From: a virus
Strand: one strand, 5' to 3'
DNA length: 23,610 nt
Virus record (IMG/VR): IMGVR_UViG_3300025099_003282
Location: 1-23,610 of that record
Part shown: piece after piece, positions 2,823 through 23,299 of the stretch
Position numbering within the stretch: the first letter of the stretch is position 1
Layout: every line of letters starts with the position of its first letter
Translations under genes and position numbers: made by a program
The notes under the pieces: generated by a model
Told to the model about the DNA's origin: nothing
The model's database searches: none
Seen by the model: the letters and a program-made list of their open reading frames with translations, nothing else

Positions 2823-3539
2823 ATGAATAAACATTCATTAAAACGTTTTATCGATAAGTACCATCTTGGTGGGAACTGCTCATCAGTTGTGATTAATAGT
2901 AAGGGTGATAAACTTTCTACTAGATTTATAACAGGTGATAAGAACCTTCTTGGAGAACTTCATATGACAGGTTGGAAATTTGATGAGGCTGATTTAGGTG
3001 TGTATAACACAGAGCAGCTTGTTTCACTACTCTCTGTTCTATCAGAGAATATATCGATGAATCTAACTAAAGCTGGGGATAAAGCTGTATCTATAAAGAT
3101 ATCAGATACAAAATCTGATGTCAACTATATGCTTTCAGATTTATCGGTTATAAGTTCACCACCTAATCTAAAATCTATACCTGATTTTGAGGTAAAGATT
3201 AAAGTTGATAAAACTTTTATGAGCAAATTTATTGCTGGTAAAGGTGCTTTAGCAGATACAGATAACTTTACAGTTATTACTGCTGATGATGGAGTAAAGG
3301 TTGTGATAGGTTACGCTGAGATTAATACTAATCGTGTTACCTTGCCTGTAGAAACTGAGTCTTATGATAAGATTGAGAACGTTTCTTTTAGTGCTAACCT
3401 ATTCAGAGATGTATTGGTTGCAAATAAAGAATGTGAAAGTGCTACATTGGAAGTAAGTTCAGGCGGATTGGCTCGTATCAATTTTAAGATTGATGAGTAT
3501 GATGCTACCTACTACTTAGTTGCAGATACTGATGTGTAA
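2823..3539 (+). CDS. 45: Sliding clamp, T4 gp45-like
   Basis: The 238-residue protein is close to the 228 residues of T4 gp45, which trimerises into a ring that tethers the polymerase to DNA. Recognition rests on overall pattern: alternating beta and alpha segments in two similar halves, a C-terminal segment RINFKIDEYDATYYLVA typical of gp45 proteins, and position directly between polymerase and clamp-loader genes. It starts at ATG 2823, six bases after a good AAGGAG site (2811-2816). The stop overlaps the next gene by one base (TAATG). In T4 the clamp also activates late transcription; whether that holds here cannot be seen. The AT-rich palindrome in front of it may allow expression separate from the polymerase. 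Confidence 0.9.
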   Translation: MNKHSLKRFIDKYHLGGNCSSVVINSKGDKLSTRFITGDKNLLGELHMTGWKFDEADLGVYNTEQLVSLLSVLSENISMNLTKAGDKAVSIKISDTKSDVNYMLSDLSVISSPPNLKSIPDFEVKIKVDKTFMSKFIAGKGALADTDNFTVITADDGVKVVIGYAEINTNRVTLPVETESYDKIENVSFSANLFRDVLVANKECESATLEVSSGGLARINFKIDEYDATYYLVADTDV

Positions 3540-4306
3540 TGGAAACAACGTATGTAGATAAATCAAGAGTAACTATTAGACCAATATATAAACCATTGGC
3601 TAAAGATATGATTGAGAAAAATCACTACAGCGGAAGATTGTCGTCTTGTAGATATCCATTAGGAGTTTTCTACAAGACAGACAACCCTCATCAATTCTTC
3701 GATGAAACTGAAGAGAAACTAATAGGTGTAGCTTGTTACGGATTTCCAGTTGGTAGAAGAGTTGTTGGTTCTATATTCAAAGAAGAGATTATAGAAAACA
3801 AAAATGTATTAGAACTAACTAGATTGTTTATACACGATGGTTATGGTAAGAATATAGAGTCGCATGTTATTTCAGCCTCATTCAAATGGATGAAACAATA
3901 CGCTAAAGACATAAAGGTTTTAATATCATATGCAGATCCTGAACAAAGTCATGATGGTGCTATCTATCAGGCTACCAATTGGATATACCAAGGTTGTGGG
4001 GATTTTCAATTAGCACCAACCTTTTCACTTAGGATAAATGAAGAAGACGATTGGATGCATAGTCGAAGTGTGTATTCAAAGTATGGTTCAGCTGCTCCTA
4101 AGAACTTAATCAAAGCCATAGGACAAACCTTTTGGTTAAAGAAAGAAGCTAGTAAACATAGATACATTTATTTTCTTGGTAACAAAAAAGAGAATAGACT
4201 TTTTAAAAAAACGATGAAACATCCTATGATGGATTATCCTAAGAATTATCAACACGATGTTGAAATAACAAAAATAGAGGTTGAAAACAACAAATGGAAA
4301 AATTAG
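3539..4306 (+). CDS. Mom-like DNA-modification protein 1 (GNAT-like fold)
   Basis: The 255-residue protein resembles the phage Mu Mom family, GNAT-fold enzymes that convert adenine in DNA to an N6-carbamoylmethyl form and so block restriction. Family-like features are NHYSG (28-32), LELTRLFIHD (91-100) and the long block SYADPEQSHDGAIYQATNW (130-148) followed by YQG. It shares a second conserved patch, HSRSVYSKYG, and a C-terminal KHRYIYFLGNKK with the Mom-like protein at 5992-6636, so the two are paralogues. It starts on TAATG coupled to the clamp stop and overlaps the clamp-loader ATPase gene by 13 bases. This coupling suggests it is made with the replisome. Modification of phage DNA during replication is inferred; the actual acyl donor and product are unknown, and another GNAT activity is possible. 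Confidence 0.72.
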   Translation: METTYVDKSRVTIRPIYKPLAKDMIEKNHYSGRLSSCRYPLGVFYKTDNPHQFFDETEEKLIGVACYGFPVGRRVVGSIFKEEIIENKNVLELTRLFIHDGYGKNIESHVISASFKWMKQYAKDIKVLISYADPEQSHDGAIYQATNWIYQGCGDFQLAPTFSLRINEEDDWMHSRSVYSKYGSAAPKNLIKAIGQTFWLKKEASKHRYIYFLGNKKENRLFKKTMKHPMMDYPKNYQHDVEITKIEVENNKWKN

Positions 4307-5607: not shown

Positions 5608-5992
5608 TTATTGGGAAGATATTTCAGACGAAGATAAGAAGAGCTGGTCTAATTATATGGTTAATAGATTTTTATCTATGAAGCCTGATTGGATTGATTT
5701 AGTAAATGAGATTCAAAAGTATCCGTTAGAACCAAAGCAATTATATAAATTTTACACAAGCATCTTACCAAAAAGAAAAGAATGGTTAAGATATATCAAA
5801 GGAGACAAAAAGATGAAGTATCCAAAATGGCTTTACGAAATCGTAGTTAAAGAATTACAATGTAGTATGAAAGAGGCTAGTGATGCTGTAGATATGTATG
5901 AAATATCTGCCGGTGGTCAATCAGAGTTAGCTGATATGTTATTTAAGTATGGTATTGAAGAAAAAGAAGTTAGAAAGCTCGGACTTATATAG
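5516..5992 (+). CDS. 62: Clamp loader small subunit, T4 gp62-like
   Basis: The 158-residue protein (T4 gp62 has 187) would complete the clamp-loader pentamer with gp44. Features in keeping with gp62-like proteins of divergent T4-type phages are SLFDHI near the N terminus (16-21), a central YKFYTSILPKRKEWLRYIK block, a helical region around ELQCSMKEASDA, and a basic C-terminal end KEVRKLGLI. Sequence conservation in this family is low, so position next to the clamp and ATPase genes carries weight. The first 15 residues are lysine-rich and overlap the tiny gene before it; AAGGGG (5499-5504) is 11 bases upstream of ATG 5516. An alternative TTG start at 5546 would give a shorter N terminus. Confidence 0.8.
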   Translation: MSGTKSGKKSLVKKKSLFDHISQITAVQNPNYWEDISDEDKKSWSNYMVNRFLSMKPDWIDLVNEIQKYPLEPKQLYKFYTSILPKRKEWLRYIKGDKKMKYPKWLYEIVVKELQCSMKEASDAVDMYEISAGGQSELADMLFKYGIEEKEVRKLGLI

Positions 5993-6636
5993 TGTCTGTT
6001 ACTAATTTCTTAGTTGAAGAAATATTAAGAAAGCCAGCTTCTGAATTTATAGAAAAATACCATTATTCTCACAGTACAAATGGTGTTCAGTCTATAATTC
6101 ATTATGGTTTATATAAACCCGATGAAGATGGTTCTAGATTTGGTGTACCAAAACAGATTGGAGCTGCTATGTATGCTTGGCCATCAATGCCAAATACGAG
6201 AGGTAAGTATAATCCAATCAATCCAACTAAGTGTTTAGAACTTAGAAGATTAGCGTGTGTAGACGACACACCTAAGAACACAGAAAGCTATTTTATCTCA
6301 CAAACAATAAAGTTACTGAAGAAGACTACGGATATGGAAGTTATAGTTTCGTTTGCTGATGGACACCAAGGACACACAGGAGTAATATACAAAGCTAGTA
6401 ACTTTGATTACTTAGGTGAAACCGGAGGCGGTAGGATACTGATGGTAGATGGTAAAGAAACACATAGTAGGTCTCTAAATCAGTTGGACAGGCCTTATGG
6501 TAGAGAACTTAATCGTAGATATAAAGCTGGTGACGAGAATATATTTTGGAAGAAGACAAAGCCAAAGCATATCTATGTATACTACCTCAATAAAAAAATT
6601 AAAAGACAAATAAAAAAGCTTGACTTATATACATAA
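5992..6636 (+). CDS. Mom-like DNA-modification protein 2 (GNAT-like fold)
   Basis: This second Mom-like protein, 214 residues, starts with GTG in a TAGTG overlap with the gp62-like stop; the first in-frame ATG is at codon 60, too late to keep the conserved N-terminal motif. It has YHYSH (23-27), LELRRLACVDDTPKN (82-96) and SFADGHQGHTGVIYKASNF (120-138) with YLG after it. These fit the Mom pattern better than the paralogue at 3539-4306. The shared HSRS patch (GKETHSRSLNQLDRPYG) and the C-terminal KHIYVYYLNKK tie the two together. Its 3' end contains the -35 box of promoter P2. It may modify phage DNA, perhaps in another sequence context or together with the first copy; that division of labour is a guess. 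Confidence 0.78.
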   Translation: MSVTNFLVEEILRKPASEFIEKYHYSHSTNGVQSIIHYGLYKPDEDGSRFGVPKQIGAAMYAWPSMPNTRGKYNPINPTKCLELRRLACVDDTPKNTESYFISQTIKLLKKTTDMEVIVSFADGHQGHTGVIYKASNFDYLGETGGGRILMVDGKETHSRSLNQLDRPYGRELNRRYKAGDENIFWKKTKPKHIYVYYLNKKIKRQIKKLDLYT

Positions 6637-9127: not shown

Positions 9128-9357
9128 GAACTGATTTAATTAAAGCTAGTGAACTACACTTTAAAGCACATATTGAAAAACATAGAATAAATGTAGAAAA
9201 TTTATTAGAAAATGGTGTGGGTGTTGCTGAACATGCAGATATTATGGATACGATAGAAAAAGAGTTAGAGATTATGGCTGAATATGATGATAAGCTATCT
9301 ATCTTAAATAAATACTTCACTATTAATGATGGTTCTAAAGGGGTTTTAAATGGCTAA
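9124..9357 (+). CDS. Small helical phage protein, conserved-looking
   Basis: The 77-residue protein appears to be all helix: a first helix around LIKASELHFKAHIEKHRINVENLL, then a loop with GVGVAEHADIMDTIEKELEIMAEYDDKL. Such proteins with a V.NVE.L......GV.EH.dI..TIE.EL pattern are familiar from T4-type marine phages, but their role is unknown to me. It starts in an ATGA overlap with the ribbon-helix-helix gene and its last eight bases overlap the first glycosyltransferase gene. Translation is therefore coupled through the junction between regulatory and glycan genes. Confidence 0.8.
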   Translation: MRTDLIKASELHFKAHIEKHRINVENLLENGVGVAEHADIMDTIEKELEIMAEYDDKLSILNKYFTINDGSKGVLNG

Positions 9358-10747
9358 GAAAAAGATTTTATTATTATCAGATGATTTAAGAATGTCATCT
9401 GGCGTAGGTACGATGTCTCGTGAATTTGTTATGGGAACATTGAAAGAATACGATTGGGTTCAGGTTGGTGGTGCTATTAAACATCCTGATGAAGGTAAGA
9501 TAGTAGACATGAATGATGCTGTTCGTAAAGAAACTGGTATTGAAGATGCTTATCTTAAAATATATCCAGTCAGCGGATATGGTAGTCCTGATATAGTCAA
9601 ACAGGTTATTGGACTAGAAAACGGAGTCGATGCTGTACTACATTATACAGACCCTAGATTTTGGGGATGGTTATATCAGATGGAGCATGAGCTAAGACAG
9701 ACTATTCCAATATTCTATTATAATATTTGGGATGATTTACCTTACCCAAGATGGAATGAGCCATTCTATGAGTCTTGTGATTTAATTATGAACATATCCA
9801 AACAAACAGTCAATATAGTAGATAATGTTTGCCAGATAAAACCAAGAACAGATTGGGATAATACCTATATTCCACATGGTATAGATGAGAAGAAGTATTA
9901 TCCAATTACACCACTAAACACAAAAGAGTGGGGTGACTTACTACAATTTAGAAGAAATATGACGCAGGGTAAAGATTACGAATTTATAGTATTTTGGAAC
10001 AATAGAAACATCAGAAGAAAGTTACCAGGCGATGTGATAATGGCTTACAAACAATTCTGTGATATGTTACCAAAAGAACAATCTGATAAATGTGCTCTTG
10101 TAATGCATACTCAACCACGTGACGAAAATGGAACAGATTTACCTGAAGTTGTTAGAGAGCTTTGTCCTGATTATGATGTTATATTTTCACATAAAAAATT
10201 AGATGATAAAGAATTATGTTATCTATATAATATAGCAGATGTCGGTATGAATATGGCTTCCAATGAAGGATTTGGATTAGGAACTTGTGAAGCTCTTATG
10301 TGTGGAACACCAATATCAGTCAATGTCACAGGCGGTTTACAAGACCAAGTTGGTTTTAAGTACAAAGATAAGTTCATAACTTACAAAGATTACAGTTGGA
10401 TTCATTCACTACATGATGATAAAAAGTGGAAAGATAATGAAGATTTGACTTGGGGAGATTGGTGTAAACCAGTTTGGCCATCTAATAGAAGTTTGCAGGG
10501 TTCAATACCTACACCATACATCTATGATGACAGGCCTCGCTCTTCAGACTTTGCTGATGTCATCAAAGAATGGTATGATGTGGGCAAAGAAAAAAGAGAA
10601 GAGTGTGGTAGGTTAGGTCATGAATTTGTTATGAGTGACGATTCTATGATGTCAGCTACTGCTATGTCTAATAACTTTGTAAGTCATATGAACACAGCAT
10701 TTGATAAATGGACACCACGTAAACGATTTACAATGCACGAAGTATAG
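9350..10747 (+). CDS. Glycosyltransferase, GT-B fold, family 4-like (A)
   Basis: The 465-residue protein has an N-terminal Rossmann start (KKILLLSDDLRMSSGVGTMS), a linker near IPHGID (174-179), and the C-terminal nucleotide-sugar domain with the E-X7-E motif of retaining GT4 enzymes, E306 to E314 in NEGFGLGTCEALMCGTP. TGGLQDQVG follows, as expected. It would transfer a sugar from an NDP-sugar to an acceptor in the cytoplasm; neither substrate can be read. AAGGGG lies about seven bases before the ATG. This is the first gene of the glycan operon and overlaps the preceding gene by eight bases. Confidence 0.88.
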   Translation: MAKKKILLLSDDLRMSSGVGTMSREFVMGTLKEYDWVQVGGAIKHPDEGKIVDMNDAVRKETGIEDAYLKIYPVSGYGSPDIVKQVIGLENGVDAVLHYTDPRFWGWLYQMEHELRQTIPIFYYNIWDDLPYPRWNEPFYESCDLIMNISKQTVNIVDNVCQIKPRTDWDNTYIPHGIDEKKYYPITPLNTKEWGDLLQFRRNMTQGKDYEFIVFWNNRNIRRKLPGDVIMAYKQFCDMLPKEQSDKCALVMHTQPRDENGTDLPEVVRELCPDYDVIFSHKKLDDKELCYLYNIADVGMNMASNEGFGLGTCEALMCGTPISVNVTGGLQDQVGFKYKDKFITYKDYSWIHSLHDDKKWKDNEDLTWGDWCKPVWPSNRSLQGSIPTPYIYDDRPRSSDFADVIKEWYDVGKEKREECGRLGHEFVMSDDSMMSATAMSNNFVSHMNTAFDKWTPRKRFTMHEV

Positions 10748-10900: not shown

Positions 10901-12235
10901 ATGAAACCATTAATGTTAATTACAGGACCTGTTGCTACCAGAAGTGGATATGGTTCTCATAGTAGAGATTTAGTTAGAAGTTTAATATCTATGGATAAAT
11001 TTGACATTCAAGTCAACTCACTTCGTTGGGGAAACTGTCCAATGAATGCGCTTGATGATAAAAATCCAAATGATAAAGTAATAATTGATAGGATTATTAC
11101 TGATAATAAGTTAGAAAGACAACCTGATATCCATCTACATATCAGCGTACCAAACGAATTTAGTGCATTGGGAAAGTATAACATAGGAATTACTGCCGGT
11201 ATCGAAAATACTGCTCCAAAGGTAGAGTGGATTCAAGGTATGAACAGAATGAATATGAATATTGTTCCATCCAAGTTCGTAAAAGAGATATTTGAAAGAG
11301 TGTCTTATGAAGAAATAAATGAACAAACAAAGCAGAAGACTGGTGAGTTAAAAGTAACATCACCGATAGAAGTTTTATTTGAAGGTGCTGACACAAATAT
11401 TTATAAGAAGACAAAAGAAATATCAGATAGTCTTAAAGCTGAAATGGGTAATGTCAAAGAAAGATTTGCATTTCTTTATACTGGACATTGGTTACAAGGT
11501 AACTTAGGAGAGGATAGAAAAGATACCGGTATGTTGCTGAAGACATTCTTAGAAACTTTCAAAAACAAACCCAATCCACCAGCACTAATAATGAAAACAA
11601 GTGGTGCTACGTTTTCTATAATAGATAGAAATGAAGTAAAGAAGAAGATAAAAGATATTAAAGATACTGTAAGTGGTAAACTTCCTCCTGTTTATTTACT
11701 GCACGGAGATTTAACTGATGAGGAGATGAACCAGATGTACAATCATCCAAAAGTAAAGGCTCATGTTAGCTTTACGCATGGTGAGGGTTTCGGTCGTCCT
11801 TTATTAGAGGCTAGTTTATCAGAGAAGATAGTTATTGCTCCTGATTGGAGTGGACATAAAGATTTTCTTAATAAGAATAACTCAGTTCTTTTGCCAGGTT
11901 CATTGACTAAAGTACACCCATCAGCTCTACCAAAAGAAATATTCGTTGAAGGTGCTGAATGGTTTACCACTAACTACCAATACGCTTCACAAGTTTTGAT
12001 GGATGTATTTAAAAAGAACAGAGAATATACAATGAAAGCCAAAAGACAGTCTATGCATAATAGAGTTAATTTTACTATGGATAAAATGACTACTGAGTTT
12101 GCTAGGATGCTAGATAATCATCTACCTAAATTTGAAGAACAACCGAAGTCGGTTAGCTTAAAGTTGCCAAAGTTGAAGAAAGTATCTAGTGCCAAGCCAA
12201 CTGAGATGAAATTACCAAAACTAAAGAAGGTTTAA
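10901..12235 (+). CDS. Glycosyltransferase, GT-B fold, family 4-like (B), with repeated basic tail
   Basis: The 444-residue protein has the GT4 layout: N-terminal glycine-rich start (TGPVATRSGYGSHSRDL), a hinge near VLFEGADTNIY (158-168), and E295 to E303 in HGEGFGRPLLEAS, the E-X7-E donor-binding motif. The core resembles the protein encoded at 9350-10747 only in fold. The C terminus is unusual: KLPKLKKV occurs twice (421-428 and 437-444), the second copy at the very end. A GAGG site (10892-10895) lies five bases before the ATG. It probably adds a sugar in the same glycan pathway; donor and acceptor are unknown. Confidence 0.87.
   Translation: MKPLMLITGPVATRSGYGSHSRDLVRSLISMDKFDIQVNSLRWGNCPMNALDDKNPNDKVIIDRIITDNKLERQPDIHLHISVPNEFSALGKYNIGITAGIENTAPKVEWIQGMNRMNMNIVPSKFVKEIFERVSYEEINEQTKQKTGELKVTSPIEVLFEGADTNIYKKTKEISDSLKAEMGNVKERFAFLYTGHWLQGNLGEDRKDTGMLLKTFLETFKNKPNPPALIMKTSGATFSIIDRNEVKKKIKDIKDTVSGKLPPVYLLHGDLTDEEMNQMYNHPKVKAHVSFTHGEGFGRPLLEASLSEKIVIAPDWSGHKDFLNKNNSVLLPGSLTKVHPSALPKEIFVEGAEWFTTNYQYASQVLMDVFKKNREYTMKAKRQSMHNRVNFTMDKMTTEFARMLDNHLPKFEEQPKSVSLKLPKLKKVSSAKPTEMKLPKLKKV
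12161..12232 (+). repeat. Coding repeat: two KLPKLKKV peptides at the end of glycosyltransferase B
   Basis: Bases 12161-12184 and 12209-12232 both encode KLPKLKKV, but with different codons for leucine, lysine and proline. Identity at protein rather than DNA level suggests the peptide is kept by selection or is old. It could be a docking or membrane-surface peptide. Confidence 0.8.
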
Positions 12236-12236
12236 T

Positions 12237-12692
12237 ATGGAAGAAAAAACAAATTGCCCTTTGTGTAAAGATTTGCACAGTAATTGCTTTGTAGAGAAAA
12301 CAGAAGTAGAAGGTAAGCCTTTTGAATCTTATATCTGTTTCTCTTGTGGTATGACATCTAATTCTTATCTTGCTTTTGATAGTGAAAAATTAGAAGAATA
12401 TACAGAGAGTCATAGTCAATTGATGAACGACTTAAAAATATTTGATAAGGAACGGGATATCGTTTGGTTTCCATCTGTGATTAATATGGGAGAAAAGGGT
12501 ATAATATATCCTGAAGGAACTGCCAGCAACTGGCATTGGTATTATGCTGGTGTAGTAGAAATACCAAAAAAAGATAGAAAAAAATATGATGGTCATGAAA
12601 GAAGATTAGATGTTGAGAATGCACAAAAGTTTGGTCAGTTTGAATTTATGGATGCTTGTCAAGCTATGGGAGTTATAAAAGACAATGGCTAA
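12237..12692 (+). CDS. Zinc-ribbon protein of unknown function
   Basis: The 151-residue protein has C7-X2-C10 (CPLC) and C34-X2-C37 (CFSCG), a classic zinc-ribbon pair, followed by an acidic helix and a tryptophan-rich stretch (ASNWHWYYAGVVEIP). The C-terminal part (KFGQFEFMDACQAMG) looks globular. Similar proteins occur in marine T4-type phages, but I know no function. It starts one base after the glycosyltransferase stop and overlaps the next gene by eight bases. Its presence among glycan genes does not by itself imply a role in sugar chemistry. Confidence 0.83.
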   Translation: MEEKTNCPLCKDLHSNCFVEKTEVEGKPFESYICFSCGMTSNSYLAFDSEKLEEYTESHSQLMNDLKIFDKERDIVWFPSVINMGEKGIIYPEGTASNWHWYYAGVVEIPKKDRKKYDGHERRLDVENAQKFGQFEFMDACQAMGVIKDNG

Positions 12693-13125
12693 ACTACCTT
12701 ACAGTTGGAATAAAGTAAGTCCTGGTGATATAGTATCTTTCGTCTATGAAAATAGAGATGGTAGAAAACTTCGTAGAACTATATTAGTGTTAGACCCAAA
12801 GTTAAGAAACAGAGCTAAGAATAAATCGAGTCAGTATTTAGTCCATGGTATTCAGCTAGAGGTATCTAATAAACCAACACTCGTACAAATGAAAACCCTA
12901 TTAGAACAAGCAGGTACAACTGAAATAGTAGATGAGAAGAAAAAGATATACAGAGTTCAATTGGATGGTACTGCTAAACAACTTTACAAAAAGATGAGAA
13001 CTATAATAAACAAATATGGTATTTACAGAAGTTATAATTACGATAAGGCTAGAAAGAGTTCAGTAACATTAGAAGATTTAAGGTTACCAACACAATTTGT
13101 GCAAGAGTTAAAGAATGAAAATTAG
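12685..13125 (+). CDS. Conserved-looking phage protein of unknown function, beta-rich N terminus
   Basis: The 146-residue protein opens with KLPYSWNKVSPGDIVSFVY and RRTILVLDPKLRNR, strands and turns that look like a small beta-barrel. A basic region follows and then a C-terminal IYRSYNYDKARKSSVTLEDLRL segment. The pattern PGDI.SF.Y followed by TiLVL.PKL recalls a short family in marine phages with no known role, possibly a structural or assembly protein. It overlaps its neighbours by eight and eleven bases. A phage-structural role would make it an outsider in the glycan operon. Confidence 0.8.
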   Translation: MAKLPYSWNKVSPGDIVSFVYENRDGRKLRRTILVLDPKLRNRAKNKSSQYLVHGIQLEVSNKPTLVQMKTLLEQAGTTEIVDEKKKIYRVQLDGTAKQLYKKMRTIINKYGIYRSYNYDKARKSSVTLEDLRLPTQFVQELKNEN

Positions 13126-13753
13126 TTATGGTATTACAGTTCACAACGAAGCTGAGGAACTACAAAAGTTATTAGATGTACTAAACAAAAGCATAGATAA
13201 AGAAGATGAGATAGTTGTTTGTGTAGATGGTGATGATGAAAAGGTAGAGGCTGTATTGGGTGAATATCTATCTGAAAACAAAGCTATAGTTTACAAAAGA
13301 AAACTTGATGGTAATTTTTCAGACCAAAAAAATTCAGTTATAGAAAAGGCAAGTGGTGATTATATCTTTCATATAGATGCAGATGAATACCCAAACGAAA
13401 TATTAATACAACAATTAAAAGAAATATTAAAGATAAACGAAGTTGATTTGATTTGGATACCAAGAGTAAATACGATTGAAGGTATGAAAGAAGAACATAT
13501 ACAGAGATGGGGTTGGAGAGTTACAGAGAATAGTTGGGTAAACTATCCTGATTATCAAGCTCGTGTATTTAGAAGAGATGAGTCTATAAGATGGACAAGA
13601 CCACTTCATGAATACATATCAGGTTGTAAGACATATTCACATTTACCACCACAAGAAGAATTGAGCTTGTATCATCCAAAAACTATAGAGAAGCAAGAGA
13701 AACAGAATATGTTTTATAATAAGAATTTCAGTAAAGAAATGAATGTGAGGTAG
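13115..13753 (+). CDS. Glycosyltransferase, GT-A fold, family 2-like
   Basis: The 212-residue protein begins with the GT2 pattern ISYGITVHNEAEEL, has an acidic DGDD at 38-41 for nucleotide binding, and the metal-binding D-A-D at 88-90 in YIFHIDADEYP. The later W-rich part (RWGWRVTENSW) and FRRDESIRWTRPLHE fit the acceptor side of WaaE/KdtX-type GT2 proteins. It should invert and transfer a sugar from an NDP-sugar in the cytoplasm. Length is short but complete for this subfamily. It overlaps the previous gene by 11 bases and its ribosome site is weak. Confidence 0.87.
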   Translation: MKISYGITVHNEAEELQKLLDVLNKSIDKEDEIVVCVDGDDEKVEAVLGEYLSENKAIVYKRKLDGNFSDQKNSVIEKASGDYIFHIDADEYPNEILIQQLKEILKINEVDLIWIPRVNTIEGMKEEHIQRWGWRVTENSWVNYPDYQARVFRRDESIRWTRPLHEYISGCKTYSHLPPQEELSLYHPKTIEKQEKQNMFYNKNFSKEMNVR

Positions 13754-13755
13754 TT

Positions 13756-15210
13756 GTGGTAGAACCAATGGTATTTTTTAGAATTGTCGATAATATATTG
13801 TATAAAGCTGGAGATGTTGATGTTTTAGGTTTTGAAGAATCAGAAGGGTTACGAATACCTGATGAATATCTTGACAATAGAATATTTGTAGTTATGAGAA
13901 TGTGTTTGGGTATTGGAGATTGGGGTGTAGTGTCTGCTATGCCAAGATTACTCAAACAAAAATATCCTGATTGTAAAGTTTATGTACCAACAGCAAAATT
14001 ACAAGAGAAAATATGTGGAGATATTGGAGACGAATGGAGTAGTTGGAAAAATCCATTCAAAAATGGTGTAAATGTCTTTAAGAATAATCCGTATGTTGAT
14101 GGTTTTGTAAACAGCGTTAAGGGAGAAATATTTCACGATCATTATAGAATATATAACAAAGATAATCCAAATATCCCAATGTTAGAACAGATGTTGAAGT
14201 TTTGGCAGCTTGAAGAAGATGAATACAAAGACTCTGCGCCTGAATTGTATTTTAGTGATGAAGAAAAAAAGTTAGGTGATAGTATTATAAAAGAGTACAT
14301 CGGTGAAGAAGAATATGGTTGCTTACTACTATCAGATAGATATGATTATACTATGGATAGATTAATGTTGGATGTTATAAATCCTAAATTAAAACACTTC
14401 TATTGGACAGAAAGACCAATTGAACAGACATCATTTAACTTTATAGACAAAGCATTAGATATGAGACACGTGCCAGTTAGGATACAACTTTACATTAGGT
14501 CTAAAGCTAAATACAACGTTGGTAACCAATGTGGAACTACACAGTTAACAACCAGATACTCTGATACATATACAGTTCAAAGGCAATTCCCTATAGCACA
14601 CAACTTCGTACGTGGTGAAATATACCTAACAGATGATAAGGTAAGAAATTTACTTAAAGGTTTGCCTGATAAAACAGAATCAAAGACTACAACGAGTTTG
14701 AAATTTAAAGCTGACTTTATAGACTTCTTTGATAAAGAGGAATATAAAGATATGAAAGTACTAGAAGTTGGTTCTTCATTAGGTCATAGTACAGGAATGT
14801 TAAGTTATTTGTTCAAAAAAGTTATAGCTTTAGACAACTTATATGAAAGGCATGAGCAATCAAAAAAGTTAAATAGTAATAGTGATAATATTGAATATGT
14901 TGTAATGGATGTTTACAATCAACCTTGGAACTTTGAACATATGGATATCGTATTCATAGATTGTGTTCACGATTATCTTCACGTAAAAAGTGATATAGAT
15001 AATTCTCTCAATAGTTTTGGTAAAGGAACAATAATTGCTTTCGATGACTATGGTTTATTTCCTGAATTAAAGCAAGCTATAGATGAGTACGTTGATAGAG
15101 GACAATTTAAGGTTTTGAAGAAGATAGGTCAGTTAAAGGATACCTATTTTCCAACAACACAATTTAAAGTGCTAAAGGATTATGAGGGTATAATATGTCA
15201 AAGCGTGTAA
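13756..15210 (+). CDS. Fusion: GT9-like (heptosyltransferase-type) domain plus SAM-dependent methyltransferase
   Basis: The 484-residue protein seems to hold two enzymes. Residues about 42-295 look like a GT-B protein of the heptosyltransferase (GT9) type: MRMCLGIGDWGVVSAMPRL, with LLKQKYPDCKVYV, matches the first strand-helix of that family, and GNQCGTTQLT (257-266) is where these enzymes bind the nucleotide sugar. Residues about 318-484 are a class I methyltransferase: VLEVGSSLGHSTG (335-347), the acidic D360 after strand 2 and VFIDCVHDYLH (399-409). It could add a sugar and then methylate it, or methylate a neighbouring group. GTG 13756 is preferred to ATG 13768 because TGAGG lies close upstream. 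The GT9 half is less certain than the methyltransferase half. Confidence 0.75.
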   Translation: MVEPMVFFRIVDNILYKAGDVDVLGFEESEGLRIPDEYLDNRIFVVMRMCLGIGDWGVVSAMPRLLKQKYPDCKVYVPTAKLQEKICGDIGDEWSSWKNPFKNGVNVFKNNPYVDGFVNSVKGEIFHDHYRIYNKDNPNIPMLEQMLKFWQLEEDEYKDSAPELYFSDEEKKLGDSIIKEYIGEEEYGCLLLSDRYDYTMDRLMLDVINPKLKHFYWTERPIEQTSFNFIDKALDMRHVPVRIQLYIRSKAKYNVGNQCGTTQLTTRYSDTYTVQRQFPIAHNFVRGEIYLTDDKVRNLLKGLPDKTESKTTTSLKFKADFIDFFDKEEYKDMKVLEVGSSLGHSTGMLSYLFKKVIALDNLYERHEQSKKLNSNSDNIEYVVMDVYNQPWNFEHMDIVFIDCVHDYLHVKSDIDNSLNSFGKGTIIAFDDYGLFPELKQAIDEYVDRGQFKVLKKIGQLKDTYFPTTQFKVLKDYEGIICQSV

Positions 15211-15881
15211 TTTACACTTCAGTATTTGGTGGGTATGATAAAGTTACAAAACAGAGCTCAGATGGTTGGGATTGGAAATGCTTTAGTGAGAAAAATAGTA
15301 TATCATTGTATGATGACAATAATAGAAATGCTAAAAGGTTTAAGGTACTACCACACAAATATTTACAGAACTATGAGTATAGTATTTTTATAGATGGTAA
15401 TATGGATGTAAGAGGAAACTTAGATGAACTTATTGATAAATATTTGAGTGATTCAAATGTTGCATTCTTTAGTCATAAAAATAATAAGTTGGATTCTAGA
15501 GATTGTGCATACGCTGAAGCTCAAACTATACTTGATTTAGGTTCTAAGAATATGAAACTCACTCCTGAAAGAGGTATGTTGAATTATAAAGATAATCCAA
15601 AAACTATAGTTAATCAATTTGACAAGTATGCTAAATTAGGTTATCCAGAAAATAATGGTTTGATAACAGGTATGGTTATATTGAGAAGACACAATGAGAA
15701 AGATTGTATTGAAACTATGGAAGACTGGTGGAAGGAAATAAAGTATGGTAGTAAAAGAGACCAATTGAGTTTCAATTATTGTGCTTGGAAGAATGGCTTG
15801 AAGTTCAATTATATGGATGGAGATTCTAGAGACAATGAATATTTTTACAGAAGTACTAACGCTCACATAGGAAAGAAATGA
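15195..15881 (+). CDS. Glycosyltransferase-like protein, DUF616 (TOD1/MUCI70) type
   Basis: The 228-residue protein fits the DUF616 glycosyltransferase-like family: it opens RVIYTSVFGGYD, has RFKVLPHKYLQNYEYSIFIDGNM (48-70), where D67-G-N-M-D71 replaces the usual DXD, and later KRDQLSFNYCAWKNGL, typical of the family. A mid-protein segment with RDCAYAEA is also shared. Many members decorate polysaccharides, but few have been tested. It overlaps the preceding fusion gene by 16 bases and the next gene by ATGA. The substrate cannot be read. Confidence 0.8.
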   Translation: MSKRVIYTSVFGGYDKVTKQSSDGWDWKCFSEKNSISLYDDNNRNAKRFKVLPHKYLQNYEYSIFIDGNMDVRGNLDELIDKYLSDSNVAFFSHKNNKLDSRDCAYAEAQTILDLGSKNMKLTPERGMLNYKDNPKTIVNQFDKYAKLGYPENNGLITGMVILRRHNEKDCIETMEDWWKEIKYGSKRDQLSFNYCAWKNGLKFNYMDGDSRDNEYFYRSTNAHIGKK

Positions 15882-16681
15882 AGAATATAATTTTTATACC
15901 TTATATCAAAAGAGAAAAAGATTTAACTGGCGCATCAAGTATTGGTCATTCAAACAGACATCAAGGTTATGAATGGGGAATAAAGTCTTGGAAAGCTTGG
16001 GCTAAAAAGAATGGTCACGAAGTATATGTTATGTCAGACCTACTTTGTCCTGAATCTGAAATGTTAATAACCTGGCAGAGATGGCAGGTTCTAAATATAT
16101 TAGAACACAATGACATAGAATACAACCAAGTATTAGTTGTCGATGCTGATTCAGTAGTTCATCCTGATTGTCCTAACTTTTTTGAGATGACAGATGGTAA
16201 ATTTACAAGTGTTTTAACTGATGGGGATTTTGAGTGGATGAACAGAGCTATAAATGGTTACTCTAAAATGTTTTGGAACAAAGAGTTTTGCATACCATCT
16301 TTTGAGTTCTTTCAAACTGGCTTTGTTATTATCAATAAAGAACACAAAAAGTTCTTTGATAAGGTGTTTAATTTTTATGAGAAGAACAAACAAAAGATTA
16401 TTGATTCATATGATATATTATTGACTGGTAGTGATATAACATTGATGAATTGTATGAGAAAAGAATTTGGCTTAGAACTAAATCTACTACCAAGACAATT
16501 TGGTATGATGGACATGGTTAGAAAGCAGTTATTCTATTTTCACGAGAGTTGTTATTGGGAAGATAGTTTAACTAACCTATATAACTCAGGTTGGGTATAT
16601 CAATTTAATGCTATACCACCAAGTAATATGGGAAGAGATAGAACTTACTGGATGAAAAGAGTATACGAGGAGTTATTTTGA
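15878..16681 (+). CDS. Glycosyltransferase-like protein, GT-A fold with DXD
   Basis: The 267-residue protein begins with a strand (KNIIFIPYI) and has WQRWQVLNIL and then VLVVDADSVVHP (86-96), where D89-A-D91 is the metal-binding motif of GT-A enzymes. FFQTGFVIIN and GSDITLMNCMRKEFG follow, as in enzymes resembling families 8 and 32, where a D and an N line the active site. It probably transfers a sugar with retention, but family placement is by pattern only. Start overlaps the DUF616 gene (ATGA); the stop overlaps the next TTG start. Confidence 0.75.
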   Translation: MKNIIFIPYIKREKDLTGASSIGHSNRHQGYEWGIKSWKAWAKKNGHEVYVMSDLLCPESEMLITWQRWQVLNILEHNDIEYNQVLVVDADSVVHPDCPNFFEMTDGKFTSVLTDGDFEWMNRAINGYSKMFWNKEFCIPSFEFFQTGFVIINKEHKKFFDKVFNFYEKNKQKIIDSYDILLTGSDITLMNCMRKEFGLELNLLPRQFGMMDMVRKQLFYFHESCYWEDSLTNLYNSGWVYQFNAIPPSNMGRDRTYWMKRVYEELF

Positions 16682-17103
16682 GAAAGATAGTAGGATTTAC
16701 GAGCGGCTATTTTGATATTATGCATCCAGGTCATGTATTGATGTTGAAAGAATGTAAGAGGTATTGTGATTATCTAATAGTTGCAGTCAATGAATACAGA
16801 ACTAAGACTAAACAGCCAGATGGTAGAGAAAAGAATGAACCTATATGGACACCAAAGGAAAGGTTGATGATGGTTGAAGCTTGTAAGTTTGTAGATGAGG
16901 CTTTTCTTTACGATGGTGAAAAAGCTTTATATGATTATCTATTTAATAGTGGTGATAGAATAGATGTTCGTATATTAGGAGATGACCACAGAGATAAACC
17001 ATTTACAGGAGATGATTTAGAAATTGATATAATATTTAATAGTAGAAATCATAATTACAGCACCACTAACACCATAACAAAAATAATTAAGGAGAGAACT
17101 TAA
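16678..17103 (+). CDS. Cytidylyltransferase-like nucleotidyltransferase (TagD/RfaE-C type)
   Basis: The 141-residue protein starts with TTG in a TTGA overlap, five bases after GAGGAG (16667-16672). It has the full HxGH nucleotidyltransferase signature HPGH (16-19) after GYFDIMHPG, and STT (128-130) near the end, the site of the ISTT motif in glycerol-3-phosphate cytidylyltransferases. It should join a nucleotide triphosphate to a sugar- or polyol-phosphate to make an activated donor for the glycosyltransferases around it. The length matches the family (about 130-150). An insert with REKNEPIWTPKERLMMV matches the usual substrate loop. The exact phosphate substrate, glycerol, heptose or another, is open. 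Confidence 0.85.
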   Translation: MRKIVGFTSGYFDIMHPGHVLMLKECKRYCDYLIVAVNEYRTKTKQPDGREKNEPIWTPKERLMMVEACKFVDEAFLYDGEKALYDYLFNSGDRIDVRILGDDHRDKPFTGDDLEIDIIFNSRNHNYSTTNTITKIIKERT

Positions 17104-17852
17104 TGAATATAGAATTTATATTTTCAGAATTTGGTTCTAGATCTACTGCTAATCAACCAGATAGTTTTACAGATGAGTTTAGATTAGACCCAACATATTC
17201 TTCTGTAAAGAAGTTTTTTCCAAAGGCAAAATTAACACTTTACACCGATATGCCTGAGTTAGGAAAAAACTACTCTGATGTAGAAGTTAGGATAATTGAT
17301 GTAGAAGAAAGCCCATTCTCAAAGTCAAATCATCGTTGGGGTTGGCATTGCTGTGATTATTATGAGGCTAAGGGTTTGTTAGAATCTACGGCTGATGTGG
17401 CTATATCAGTAGATTCTGATTTGATGTTTGTATCTGATGAGGTTAGAACAATTTTACCGATAACTAAAAAATTTGGAATTTGTGTTCCAACTAATGAGAG
17501 ACAGATGGTTAAGGTAGATGGAATCTATACTCGTGGGAATGATGGCGATTATCATTTAGATGAAGACGAAAGTAGGGGTAATCTATTAACTTACGATTTG
17601 TGGTGGTGTAGTTTTCATACAGAAGACAACAGAGGTAGGTCTTGGTTAAGTGAGTTCTGTAGATTAATGGAAACCAATCCTAAGAGAGCTCCATTACAAA
17701 TGAGTAGAGCTAGTTGGAATACTGGTATACACCCATACTCAATGCCACAACAATGGGGAGTTGGTAGTGGTTACATAGGCTGTGGTAATGAAATAATTTT
17801 ACACGTTGGTCACGAAAATGTTCAAGACCATTACTTAGAAAGGAGAATATAA
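17103..17852 (+). CDS. Probable GT-A-like glycosyltransferase of unclear family
   Basis: The 249-residue protein has a strand (MNIEFIFSEFG), a conserved-looking RWGWHCCDYYEAKGL segment, and ADVAISVDSDLMFV, where D104-S-D106 looks like a metal-binding DXD. The C-terminal part carries WNTGIHPYS and GVGSGYIGCGN, with small glycines and a histidine at the end (HVGHENV). The fold looks like a GT-A sugar transferase but no numbered family is certain. It begins in a TAATG overlap and ends in TAATG with the carbamoyltransferase, which has its own GGAG site. Confidence 0.65.
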   Translation: MNIEFIFSEFGSRSTANQPDSFTDEFRLDPTYSSVKKFFPKAKLTLYTDMPELGKNYSDVEVRIIDVEESPFSKSNHRWGWHCCDYYEAKGLLESTADVAISVDSDLMFVSDEVRTILPITKKFGICVPTNERQMVKVDGIYTRGNDGDYHLDEDESRGNLLTYDLWWCSFHTEDNRGRSWLSEFCRLMETNPKRAPLQMSRASWNTGIHPYSMPQQWGVGSGYIGCGNEIILHVGHENVQDHYLERRI

Positions 17853-19492
17853 TGAAAATAGTAGGATTCCACAGCGGACATGATTCAGCTTACAGTATAT
17901 TAGAAAATGGGATTCCAATTATACACAACGAATTGGAAAGATTTAACAGGAGAAAAAATTCAGTTGCTAATTCTATTCAATTATTTTTAGATAATGAGGA
18001 AAACTTAGATGATATAATTCATATGACAACCCATCGCACTGGTGGAATGGTAGATAACAATTATATGGATTCTTTTAATAAATGTGAATCTGTAATTGAA
18101 AAGAATGGTGGTAAATTGTACATAGTAGGACACCACCAGTCTCACGCTGCTAATGCTTTTTTTACTAGTAATTTTGAAGAAGCACTAATAGTTACAATCG
18201 ATGGTGGTGGCATTGACAATCCAAATGGGTTATTGCATGATAAATCTGATATAGATACTGCTAAAAATTCTTTCGTAACCTGCACTACTTTTTGGAGTGG
18301 TAAAGGAAATAAAATAAATCCAATACATATGATTTCAAATAAAATGTTAAATTTAGGGAAGGATTGGTCTATGTGTACGAGCAAAATATTTGGTCTTGGT
18401 ACTTGGAGAGATCCAAGAGGAGACCAAGCTGGTACTGTAATGGGTATGGCTGCTTTAGGAGATTCAGAAAAGTATATGTCTTACTTCGAAAATAAATTGA
18501 CTGTTGGTTTATTTGATAACGATGGTAATGGCTCGATAGATTTTGACTATTTAAAAGGGGAAGCTGATAAAGAAGAGCAAAACAGATTTGATATATCTGC
18601 TTCATTACAAAAAGAAACAGAGAGAGTTATCAGAGCTATATTAACACCGTATATTGAAGAATATAAACCAAAAAATCTATGTTTATCAGGAGGTGTGAGT
18701 TTAAACTGTGTTTCGATAGGTAAGATGTTAGATTGGTTTCCTGGCATAAATATTTTTGTAGACCCAATACCATATGATGCTGGGTTATCGTTGGGTTCTT
18801 CTAGATATGTTTGGCACCATATATTAGATAATCCAAGAATATATAATAATTCGCAAAATCAAAGCCCATATTTAGGCTACACATACACAGAAGATGAAGT
18901 TGGAAAAGCTTTAGATGAGAGAAGTGATGAGATAGAAGTTATAGGTGCTGATGATGATTACGTTGTACAGACTATGATTAACAAAAAAATTATATCAGTA
19001 TTTGGCGGTGGTTCTGAATCTGGTAGAAGAGCTTTGGGTAATAGGAGTATACTAGCAGATCCTACACACGCAGAAACAAAAGATATAGTTAATGAAAGGG
19101 TAAAGCACAGACAATGGTTTAGACCATTTGCACCATCGATACTTAGAGAATATGTAAAGGATTGGTTTGTTCACGATGCTGATAGCCCTTACATGAATAT
19201 TGCTATGAAATTTAAAGAAGGTATGTCTAAAAAAGTTCCAGCAGTAGTTCACTTTGATGATACTGCTAGATTACAATCTGTTAGTAAAGAAGACAATGAA
19301 TGGTATTATAGTTTTATAGATAATTTTAAGAAGAGAACTGGTGTTCCAATAGTACTTAATACTAGTTTTAATGATAGAGAACCAATAGTAGAGACTCCAC
19401 AACACGCTTTGGATTGTTTTTTAAGAACCAATATAGATTATCTGTACTTCAGAGACTATGGTATTTTAGTGAGTAAAGCATGGAAAAAGTAG
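17852..19492 (+). CDS. Carbamoyltransferase, NodU/CmcH/TobZ family
   Basis: The 546-residue protein matches the family throughout. The N-terminal kinase-like region has MKIVGFHSGHDSAY and the metal-binding VGHHQSHAANAF (92-103), then VTIDGGG (114-120). SGGVSLNC (279-286) and ESGRRALGNRSILADP (389-404) follow, and the YrdC-like region has FRPFAPSIL (423-431) and VPIVLNTSFNDREP (498-511). Carbamoyl phosphate and ATP give carbamoyl-adenylate, and the carbamoyl group then goes to a hydroxyl. Known targets are sugars, antibiotics and, in some phages, 5-hydroxymethyl pyrimidines in DNA. Surrounding glycosyltransferases favour a sugar here. GGAG lies about eight bases before the ATG. Confidence 0.93.
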   Translation: MKIVGFHSGHDSAYSILENGIPIIHNELERFNRRKNSVANSIQLFLDNEENLDDIIHMTTHRTGGMVDNNYMDSFNKCESVIEKNGGKLYIVGHHQSHAANAFFTSNFEEALIVTIDGGGIDNPNGLLHDKSDIDTAKNSFVTCTTFWSGKGNKINPIHMISNKMLNLGKDWSMCTSKIFGLGTWRDPRGDQAGTVMGMAALGDSEKYMSYFENKLTVGLFDNDGNGSIDFDYLKGEADKEEQNRFDISASLQKETERVIRAILTPYIEEYKPKNLCLSGGVSLNCVSIGKMLDWFPGINIFVDPIPYDAGLSLGSSRYVWHHILDNPRIYNNSQNQSPYLGYTYTEDEVGKALDERSDEIEVIGADDDYVVQTMINKKIISVFGGGSESGRRALGNRSILADPTHAETKDIVNERVKHRQWFRPFAPSILREYVKDWFVHDADSPYMNIAMKFKEGMSKKVPAVVHFDDTARLQSVSKEDNEWYYSFIDNFKKRTGVPIVLNTSFNDREPIVETPQHALDCFLRTNIDYLYFRDYGILVSKAWKK

Positions 19493-20220
19493 CAGTAATA
19501 GTAGAAACTAGAGAACACGATGCTTTACCATTTGTTCTTAATAATGTTATGTCGATTTTACCAGAGGACTATAGTTTACAGATATTTCATGGAACATCTA
19601 ATTATGATTACGTTTGTGATTCTGTTGAAAATAATATGATGTTGCTTGATAAAAAAGTCAAGTTCACAAATTTGGGAATAGATTCAATATCAGCCGATGC
19701 CTCTAGCTTAGAGATTATGTTGACAGAAGATTTTTGGAATCAGATAATTGCTGAAACTGTTTTATACTTTGAGTGTGATTCTATGTTGTGTCCTAATTCA
19801 GAGTACAAAGTTGAAGACTTCGAACACTTTGATTATATTGGCGGATGGTGGGGTAAATCTTTCTATCCAAAATCTCTTGATGAATCATATGATAGAGTTA
19901 TGAATGGTGGCATATCTCTCAGAAAGAAAAGTTTCATGTTAGATATTATAAATAACGAATTGAAACCATATTTACAAAGAGGTGGAAATCCTTGTGAAGA
20001 TTATTTTGTAACAGATAGAATAAGAAATAAACCAAAGGTAAGAGATGTGTTGAACTTCTCAATAGATAATGGTTATATGTATCCGTTGAATGATAAAGCA
20101 CCATTTGGATTACACAAGCCGTGGGGTGTAAATCCGGCAAAAGGTCATGGTAGATACTATGAAGATATTATAAGAGTTTGTGAACAAGTTAAAGAATTGG
20201 AGAGATTAAATGGCGTATAG
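19480..20220 (+). CDS. DUF5672-like glycosyltransferase-type protein
   Basis: The 246-residue protein has the DUF5672 arrangement: VETREHDALPFVLNNVM (8-24) at the start, LQIFHGTSN, FECDSML (97-103), YIGGWWG, the family signature NGGISLRKK (142-150) and CEDYF (172-176), whose E and D may be catalytic or metal ligands. Proteins of this type are thought to be GT-A glycosyltransferases, and several lie in O-antigen and capsule loci. The first 13 bases overlap the carbamoyltransferase. The stop lies 11 bases inside the FkbM gene. Confidence 0.8.
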   Translation: MEKVAVIVETREHDALPFVLNNVMSILPEDYSLQIFHGTSNYDYVCDSVENNMMLLDKKVKFTNLGIDSISADASSLEIMLTEDFWNQIIAETVLYFECDSMLCPNSEYKVEDFEHFDYIGGWWGKSFYPKSLDESYDRVMNGGISLRKKSFMLDIINNELKPYLQRGGNPCEDYFVTDRIRNKPKVRDVLNFSIDNGYMYPLNDKAPFGLHKPWGVNPAKGHGRYYEDIIRVCEQVKELERLNGV

Positions 20221-20863
20221 AGCTGGTGAAACAATGAGGCTTGAAGAGATTAAGGATATGGGTATTAATCCAAATGCTATATTAGATATAGGAGCTCACA
20301 CAGGACAATTTCATAGTTGGTCTAAAAGAGTTTGGCCTGATGTTGGTGTCTTTATGATAGAGGCTAATCCATTACATGAGAGTACTTTAGATAGGTTAGC
20401 TATGATGAATGGTGATAAGTATCTAATAGCTGCTATGGGTGATGAAGAAAGAGAAGTTACTTTTTATACCCGAAGCGACAAACCACACACAGAAGGTAAT
20501 TCATATTACAAAGAACATAACTATTGGGATATACCACAATTGGTGCAAGAAAGTAAAGTTAAACTGAAAAAATTAGACGATATTTTTGAAGATGATGCGG
20601 TGTTTGAGTTAATTAAAATAGATACGCAAGGTTCTGAGTTAGATATTCTAAAAGGGGGTGTAAAATTAATCAGCAAATCATCTGTAATTGTATTGGAAAT
20701 AGCTTACACAGAATATAATGAAGGCGCTCCTACTGCTAAAGATATTATTAACTATATGAATAGTATAGGATTTGAGAAAAAAATGAGTATCGGAGAACAC
20801 TATGAAGATGATGATGTAATTCAAAAGGATTTTGTATTTTTAAATAAGGAGTTAGTTAAATGA
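20210..20863 (+). CDS. FkbM-family SAM-dependent methyltransferase
   Basis: The 217-residue protein has SAM motif I ILDIGAHTGQF (24-34), the acidic residue in FMIEANP (E52 region), and the FkbM signature LIKIDTQGSELDILKGG in the middle, with VLEIAY later. These enzymes O-methylate hydroxyls, often on sugars of surface glycans. ATG 20210 follows a GGAGAG-like site by about seven bases; ATG 20234 is possible and would leave motif I intact. It overlaps the next gene by ATGA, suggesting translation coupling with the C-methyltransferase. Confidence 0.9.
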   Translation: MAYRAGETMRLEEIKDMGINPNAILDIGAHTGQFHSWSKRVWPDVGVFMIEANPLHESTLDRLAMMNGDKYLIAAMGDEEREVTFYTRSDKPHTEGNSYYKEHNYWDIPQLVQESKVKLKKLDDIFEDDAVFELIKIDTQGSELDILKGGVKLISKSSVIVLEIAYTEYNEGAPTAKDIINYMNSIGFEKKMSIGEHYEDDDVIQKDFVFLNKELVK

Positions 20864-22038
20864 AGAAAGAGTTTTTAGATTTAGGTAGACAACCTATAGC
20901 AAATAAGTTTTTAAAAGAGGATGAGATTAGTGATGAGTTCTTCTTTGATTTAAAGGTAGTTTTTGATGAGGATACTAAATTAGTTTCTATGAAAGACTTT
21001 GTAAAGCCAGAGTTGATGTTCAATGAAGATTACAAGTACAATACATCGTTGTCCACACCAATGGTTAATCATTTCAAAGAAACGGCAGAGATGTTAAGGA
21101 TGAAGTTTCAGCCTAAGAAAGTTTTGGAGATAGGTTCTAATGATGGTCCTTTCATAAGCAATTTTGATAAGGATAGTTCCATATGTGTGGAACCTTGTGA
21201 TAACTTTGCAAAGATTACAGCAGATATGGGATACAAAACTAGCACAGAGTTTTGGACTACTGATTTATCTGAGAAGATTGTGAAACAAAATGGTTATATG
21301 GATTTAATTTACTCTGCTAATTGTGTATGTCACATTCAAGATTTAGATGACGCATTCAAAGCAGTTAAAAATCTACTATCTCCTAGCGGAGTATTTGTAT
21401 TTGAAGACCCATCGCTTCTTCGTATGTTAGAGAGAGGTTCTTATGACCAAATATATGACGAACATGCGCATGTATTTTCTGTAACCGCTCTAAATAATAT
21501 ACTGAGAAGAAATGGACTACAGATTTTTAGTGTAGATAATCTATCAGTTCATGGTGGTTCTAATAGAATTTACGCTTGTCATATGGATAGTTGTATATCA
21601 GGAGATAGCGTTGGAGAAAACCTAAAAGAAGAAAAAGACTTCGGTATCAATAACTTTGAAACCTATGAGATATTTGCTAAAAGGGTAAAGGAATCAAAAG
21701 ATGAATTGGTTAGATGTTTAAGTAATCTCAAACATAATGGTAAATCGATAATCAGTATTGGTGCTACATCAAAGTCTACTACTGTATTTAATTATTGTGG
21801 TATTGATAGTTCTTTGATTGATTGTATCACAGATACAACACCCGATAAACAGAACTTGCTTGCTCCTGGCAGCCATATACCTGTTGTAGATAGAGAGTCG
21901 GTAGACTTAAATGATTACGACTATGCTTTCTTAGGTGCTTGGAACTTCAAAAGTGTTATAGCAAATAAAGAGAGTGAGTTTGTTAAAAATGGTGGACAAT
22001 TCATAACGCATGTACCAAAAATAATGACATTTTCATAA
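20860..22038 (+). CDS. Sugar C-methyltransferase, TylC3/TcaB9-like, lacking the zinc-finger start
   Basis: The 392-residue protein has the three-part layout of NDP-hexose 3-C-methyltransferases. The N-terminal portion begins directly with FLDLGRQPIANKFL and lacks the preceding CxxC; the second cysteine pair, normally before GLVQL, is also absent. The SAM domain follows, with VLEIGSNDG (88-96), and then YDEH (199-202) matching the catalytic Y.EH of TcaB9, and HGGS (231-234). The C-terminal domain has IGATSKSTTVFNYCGI and PGSHIPVVD. It probably methylates a keto-deoxysugar nucleotide. Its partners would be the epimerase and ketoisomerase just downstream. The missing zinc ligands are the odd point. 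Confidence 0.87.
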   Translation: MKKEFLDLGRQPIANKFLKEDEISDEFFFDLKVVFDEDTKLVSMKDFVKPELMFNEDYKYNTSLSTPMVNHFKETAEMLRMKFQPKKVLEIGSNDGPFISNFDKDSSICVEPCDNFAKITADMGYKTSTEFWTTDLSEKIVKQNGYMDLIYSANCVCHIQDLDDAFKAVKNLLSPSGVFVFEDPSLLRMLERGSYDQIYDEHAHVFSVTALNNILRRNGLQIFSVDNLSVHGGSNRIYACHMDSCISGDSVGENLKEEKDFGINNFETYEIFAKRVKESKDELVRCLSNLKHNGKSIISIGATSKSTTVFNYCGIDSSLIDCITDTTPDKQNLLAPGSHIPVVDRESVDLNDYDYAFLGAWNFKSVIANKESEFVKNGGQFITHVPKIMTFS

Positions 22039-22049
22039 AGGAGATTGAT

Positions 22050-23293: not shown

Positions 23294-23299
23294 AATTAG

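Follow-up and report, generated by a model that had tools for sequence, protein, structure and literature searches.

The window analysed here is the whole of a virus record of 23,610 bases. It contains a replication module with a family-B polymerase and a clamp-loader-like AAA ATPase, after which comes a long series of glycosyltransferase, methyltransferase and sugar-modifying genes. The features relevant to this work are the following:

9350..10747, + strand: GT465, the upstream paralogous glycosyltransferase, 465 aa; starts MAKKKILLLSDD, without the peptide in the window
10901..12235, + strand: GT444, the tail-bearing GT-B (GT4-like) glycosyltransferase, 444 aa; assigned by phrog_2170, AlphaFold2 and Foldseek
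12152..12184, + strand: peptide copy 1, V-S-L-K-L-P-K-L-K-K-V, residues 418-428 of GT444; the near-universal copy
12185..12208, + strand: variable linker SSAKPTEM; low conservation, many non-synonymous differences
12209..12232, + strand: peptide copy 2, K-L-P-K-L-K-K-V, residues 437-444, at the C-terminus; no non-synonymous differences in eight close sequences
12237..12692, + strand: Z151, a 151-aa protein with CPxC...CFxCG; downstream neighbour in most relatives and rival candidate receptor
12685..13125, + strand: 146-aa protein, often part of the cassette by its gene neighbourhood
13115..13753, + strand: GT2-family glycosyltransferase (GT2), 212 aa, PF00535 at E 2.4e-15; best candidate receptor

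From GT2 onward, a long glycan island occupies positions 13115-23608. Besides GT2, it encodes a TOD1/MUCI70-like transferase, a cytidylyltransferase-like protein, a carbamoyltransferase, a DUF5672 protein, FkbM and C-methyltransferases, and a weak, below-cut-off match to a dTDP-sugar isomerase. The replication module carries two separate members of the Mom family (PF25680, a DNA adenine modification family), at 3539-4306 (E 6e-44) and 5992-6636 (E 6e-42).

The tail-bearing enzyme and its repeat

The body of GT444 scores 22.3 bits against Glycos_transf_1 (PF00534), short of the Pfam cut-off of 26.4, and matches phrog_2170 at E 2.6e-18. An AlphaFold2 model based on an alignment of 111 relatives has a mean pLDDT of 92 and a pTM of 0.87; Foldseek places it among GT-B enzymes, with 3oy2 as the best match (E 4e-16, 13% identity). 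The same entry is the sole match at E 0.001 in a sequence search of the PDB (E 2.3e-4). It is the B736L protein of chlorovirus NY2A: like GT444, a virus-encoded GT-B enzyme, and the closest solved fold, although the identity is low. GT-B retaining GT4-like glycosyltransferases carry an E-x7-E motif in the C-domain; in GT444, E295 is invariant and E303 is kept in at least 90% of the 111 relatives. As the Pfam cut-off is missed, we file GT444 by its fold, as GT-B and GT4-like, and not as a member of the curated family.

The C-terminal end of the 444-aa open reading frame reads ...VSLKLPKLKKVSSAKPTEMKLPKLKKV. KLPKLKKV occurs in it twice, at residues 421-428 (12161-12184) and 437-444 (12209-12232). 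An earlier note, made from the sequence of the window alone, had pointed out this duplication, and it is real: shuffling the last 33 residues 20,000 times never produced a repeated 8-mer of any kind. As the note had also said, the copies are identical in protein and use different codons; six of eight codons differ, and 17 of 24 nucleotides match.

It had proposed further that the peptide itself is conserved, and this holds as well, for the protein and not for the DNA. In 28 pairs formed by eight close sequences (the window, L001 and L003-L008), non-synonymous differences per codon pair amount to 0.00 in copy 2 (residues 437-444) and 0.086 in copy 1 (418-427), against 0.144 for residues 1-400 (the body) and 0.446 for residues 428-435 (the linker). 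Synonymous differences are alike in all four regions, between 0.25 and 0.40. With few or no amino-acid changes in the copies, many in the linker and similar synonymous change throughout, purifying selection acts on the peptide and not on the linker.

From residue 411 onward, the blocks of the model fall to mean pLDDT values of 42-56, while the remaining blocks stand at 87-99; the tail is thus predicted to be disordered in the monomer. Since it is placed with low confidence in an otherwise confident model, the own fold of GT444 does not explain why the peptide is conserved. One could still imagine that the tail docks on a second GT444 molecule to form a homo-oligomer, or that it controls the active site of the enzyme it belongs to, given that the copy-1 blocks reach 56 and 50 and not lower. 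We hold such self-association to be very improbable: the tail has no confident docking in the monomer, and the presence of the same peptide on GT465 (see below) would be left unexplained.

Conservation of the peptide and its second carrier

An initial search gave 53 loci, profile searches of viral contigs at least 80 loci each, and genome contigs 16; one scan of viral contigs confirmed at least 593 stretches of the GT444 family. Contigs duplicated under several locus identifiers were removed by identical protein ends (372 ORFs reduced to 227) or by identity thresholds, the set of 227 admitting an ORF only if it lay on the + strand, had a stop and a near-complete start, and reached 350 bits.

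In 111 non-redundant enzymes, copy 1 follows the consensus [VI]-x-[LI]-x-[LI]-P-x-L-x-K. P423 is kept in 111 of 111 and position 422 is L or I in just as many; L425 is leucine in 103, K427 is kept in 101 and V418 in 96. All 380 ORFs with a residue in the proline column, duplicates included, have the proline. The number of copies per tail varies, mostly from one to three. By a loose pattern, which may score spacer matches as a copy, 178 of the 227 distinct enzymes have at least two copies and 48 have one; in the last, L367, the form is degenerate and escapes the pattern.

The earlier note had named a tail absent or scrambled in orthologues as what would refute its reading; within the family this did not occur, apart from a degenerate tail in Microcystis phage Mel-JY01, and a far relative in Rhodothermus phage RM378 has none. 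Mel-JY01 and four Flavobacterium immuto records are the only named phages with GT444, five of 50,697 records. Sixteen further loci (L388-L403) come from GTDB species genomes, all of them MAGs, assigned to Flavobacteriales, Pelagibacter, Euryarchaeota, Woesearchaeota and others; they probably stem from phages whose contigs were binned together with these genomes.

The peptide has one other carrier. In many relatives the N-terminus of GT465 begins with it, as MDLPKLKKV, MSEIKLPKLKS, MQKIELPKLKKIDPNK and similar forms; we looked for this N-tag in GT465 of the window and found none. Across 404 loci, the strict pattern LPxL[KR]x lies within 60 residues of the C-terminus in 182 of 236 GT444 ORFs and just behind the ATG in 52 of 251 ORFs of the GT465 family. 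Near an end of other ORFs of at least 80 aa it occurs in 2 of 5,111, a number that includes 1,794 minus-strand ORFs, mostly not genes. The count of N-tags depends on the pattern: the loose one finds them in 61 of the 182 relatives with a readable end (the GT465 N-terminus is unreadable in 45 of the 227 loci). All 54 distinct N-tags directly follow an ATG, and their codons vary; by a loose pattern, without a shuffle control, each has a tetramer resembling a Shine-Dalgarno sequence at most 22 nt upstream. As the peptide sits at opposite ends of the two paralogues, the gene duplication behind them probably did not carry it along.

The idea of a shared sorting or docking tag thus stands in part. 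The search for similar ends that the note had proposed does yield a second protein, if at the N-terminus, and this occurrence on two enzymes favours a docking tag. A general sorting tag ending many unrelated phage proteins was rejected: across the 404 loci, the strict peptide occurs near an end of no more than two ORFs apart from these enzymes, and the relative G001 (164.8 kb) has the LPxLK core at an end of no ORF of at least 50 aa other than GT444, and just one antisense 60-aa ORF with a looser match, KIPVLR.

GT465 itself is in two pieces in L312 (1-2210), L056 (18498-19989), L154, L140 and L178. Between the two pieces of L312 lies an ORF (403-1059) whose cysteines are zinc-finger-like; it may be an intron-borne homing endonuclease.

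We followed gains and losses on a 137-enzyme tree computed with the tail left out (137 of the 177 rows that have calls for both the GT465 N-terminus and Z151). Counting the fewest changes, the second C-terminal copy changed state at least 20 times, the presence of at least two copies in all at least 12 times, and the N-tag at least 7 times. A compensation between the N-tag of GT465 and the second copy of GT444 was considered and found no support in independent pairs on this tree.

The note had also called the tail basic and amphipathic, and such a tail might bind acidic membrane lipids, as in peripheral glycosyltransferases. It is indeed lysine-rich, short, repeated and terminal. The description fits only by half: conservation falls on the leucines, the proline and the final lysine, whereas K421 and K424 are replaced in about 30% of the 111 relatives. 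Spacing and proline are kept more strictly than most lysines. An invariant proline in the middle of the peptide, the fixed spacing, and acidic residues directly before the core in several N-tags (MDLPKLKK, MELPKLKK) speak against the membrane, and we regard this explanation as improbable.

Three resemblances to known motifs were considered. A sliding-clamp-binding peptide is disfavoured, as the polymerase of the window ends in SIERFF, which by eye does not resemble the repeat. Mimicry of the C-terminal peptide of FtsZ has no support: none of the FtsZ ends read in six of seven MAGs has LPxLKK (three from Flavobacteriales have FLHDNVD and one ends otherwise, while a gammaproteobacterium and Pelagibacter have IPAFLRRQ plus two residues). 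Lastly, the capsid-targeting sequence of T4 is N-terminal, and the prohead protease cuts it behind a glutamate; the C-terminal position on GT444 argues against a sequence of that type.

Gene neighbourhood and candidate receptors

The order of the cassette is GT465, GT444, often Z151, often the 146-aa protein, and GT2. Where the sequence reaches far enough (213 loci), GT465 lies upstream of GT444 in 210; in the remaining three it stands behind inserted genes. Of the 178 loci that extend beyond 3 kb on the downstream side, 177 have GT2 within that distance. The exception, L277, has no GT2 match in 3.98 kb of downstream sequence although its tail has two copies; this counts mildly against GT2 as the receptor, and GT2 may lie elsewhere, as the record has 5,632 bases.

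Z151, a zinc-ribbon-like putative adaptor encoded right beside the tail, could itself be what the peptide docks on. It starts with CPxC...CFxCG and has a conserved WFPSxxNMGxxGxIYPEG segment; the protein belongs to no Pfam family and has only weak PHROG matches, and the copy of the window has no Pfam or PHROG match at E 0.01. The gap between GT444 and Z151, a few nucleotides in most relatives, is about 210-240 nt in L019, L020, L079, L081, L195 and L209. In the first loci, two or more copies with enough downstream DNA went with Z151 and a single copy, by pattern, with its absence. The rule that two copies occur if and only if Z151 lies downstream was abandoned with the wider set, in which some one-copy tails have Z151 and some two-copy tails lack it. 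Z151 is found downstream in 192 of the 227 loci and undecided in 5; in the other 30 (of 222 with a call) it was not found, and all 30 keep copy 1, 14 of them with at least two C-terminal copies. Its presence changes three times on the 137-taxon tree, too few to assess an association. Docking on Z151 is therefore quite improbable.

As copy 1 is kept without Z151, the receptor should be something common to nearly all loci: GT465, GT2, GT444 itself, or a protein outside the cassette. The tag occurs on both GT4-type enzymes, which is most simply read as binding to a third protein. Apart from these two enzymes, no neighbour but GT2 is near-constant. The near-constant presence of GT2 also fits mere co-transfer.

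The arrangement in L257, where the stop of GT444 is in frame with a GT2 that starts a few codons later, allowed us to model the two enzymes as a pseudo-complex. The stop was read as glycine (666 residues in all), and 44 of the 51 alignment rows were such read-throughs. The model has a mean pLDDT of 89.4 and a pTM of 0.79; for two independently placed domains we would expect a pTM of about 0.6, our own estimate from the pTM formula. Residues 411-420 (AVEKKIVLPK), which include the first part of copy 1, reach a mean pLDDT of 85, compared with 56 for the same block in GT444 of the window alone, modelled with a different sequence and alignment. From 423 to 445 pLDDT stays below 50, and copy 2 remains loose. 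The model suggests an association of GT444 with GT2 in which copy 1 takes on order; as it is uncontrolled, the ordering could instead mean that copy 1 docks on the enzyme that carries it, or could come from the particular sequence and alignment.

Alternatively, a virion or host protein outside the cassette may recruit the tagged glycosyltransferases, so that the particle or the host surface is glycosylated on site. A tag on two enzymes and almost nothing else is what one expects of recruitment to a third protein, although no tag-binding virion or host protein was found. In Pontimonas phage phiPsal1 (L412:2456-6043), a distant GT4 gene (46 bits with the GT465 profile) lies directly behind the major capsid gene and is followed by a methyltransferase gene and an annotated GT2 gene, which hints at virion glycosylation; this annotated GT2, however, does not match our GT2 profile. 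The closest solved fold, mentioned above, belongs to a chlorovirus, and according to PMC4691112 chloroviruses make their own glycans. On balance, we consider a receptor outside the cassette rather unlikely.

The position of the cassette behind the replication genes raises yet another possibility, docking to the replisome or to DNA for base glycosylation. The α-glucosyltransferase of T4 docks to the sliding clamp gp45 for that purpose. Against this stand the dissimilar end of the window polymerase and the absence of any match to PF00303 (thymidylate synthase/dCMP hydroxymethylase) in G001, a record of 164.8 kb that is possibly incomplete; two of the seven records searched have such a match. DNA glycosylation is thus unlikely in G001, as far as the record goes, and we find this explanation barely credible. 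The anchoring of the tail to DNA, which the earlier note had listed as an option, is disfavoured.

Far outside the family, RM378 has a GT465-like gene (178.7 bits) adjoining one that is weakly GT444-like (28.9 bits); on the far side of a ribonucleotide reductase gene follows a GT2-like one (67.8 bits). None of the three has such a tail. An enzyme group of this kind without the tail means that the enzymes can do without the peptide.

A putative docking peptide

We consider it about even odds that the repeat acts as a short linear docking motif which gathers the enzymes of the cassette. The short linear motifs of multi-enzyme complexes have few fixed positions, a disordered terminus and repeats, and they occur on different proteins and ends with changing copy number. 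The peptide is similar: it lies in a region modelled as disordered, has few conserved positions between variable flanks, recurs in GT465 at another position, and was often gained, lost and duplicated. Two enzymes, opposite ends and a changing copy number are, at the level of sequence, what one expects of a docking motif that is portable and multivalent.

We infer that the peptide binds a protein. The hydrophobic core V/I-x-L-x-L-P-x-L and the closing lysine would fit a groove on the partner, and additional copies on the disordered tail of GT444 would raise avidity. Because relatives carry the same peptide on the N-terminus of GT465, it most likely brings both GT4-type enzymes together on a single receptor. 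GT2, nearly always co-encoded in the cassette, is the best candidate for this role, an assignment that we make tentatively and, taken alone, at less than even odds. Sugars would then be added in sequence, and the product is presumably a glycan for the virion or the cell surface.

Among known systems, GtfA-GtfB and SdgA-SdgB are similar to GT465 and GT444 in being pairs of related GT-B enzymes that act together. According to PMC8561734, SdgB binds SdgA, and GtfA and GtfB share a heterodimeric interface; the contact described there is made through an inserted folded domain (DUF1975) and not through a terminal peptide. Pelagimyophages, T4-like marine phages with many glycosyltransferases, are proposed to modify the host O-chain (PMC7029224); the excerpt of that paper gives GT8 as their main family, unlike the GT4-like GT444, and mentions no tail peptide. 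The open-licence literature that we searched held no description of this peptide and no mention of LPKLKK; for four variants of it, nothing on phages or glycosyltransferases was found by titles. For the GT444 family, our search found no substrate or partner.

Altogether, a portable peptide, placed at either end in one to several copies, might build a three-glycosyltransferase machine, either with GT2 as its scaffold or directly on the virion. It would then be a phage-specific docking code for the glycan coat of the particle or the host, a generalization that we offer as a possibility short of even odds. Should the peptide work as a portable tag, it might also serve to assemble enzymes. In any case, a single peptide of 8-11 residues provides a simple, testable handle on the organisation of phage-encoded glycosyltransferases. 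Naming its receptor would show where the glycan is destined: to the virion, the host surface or elsewhere.
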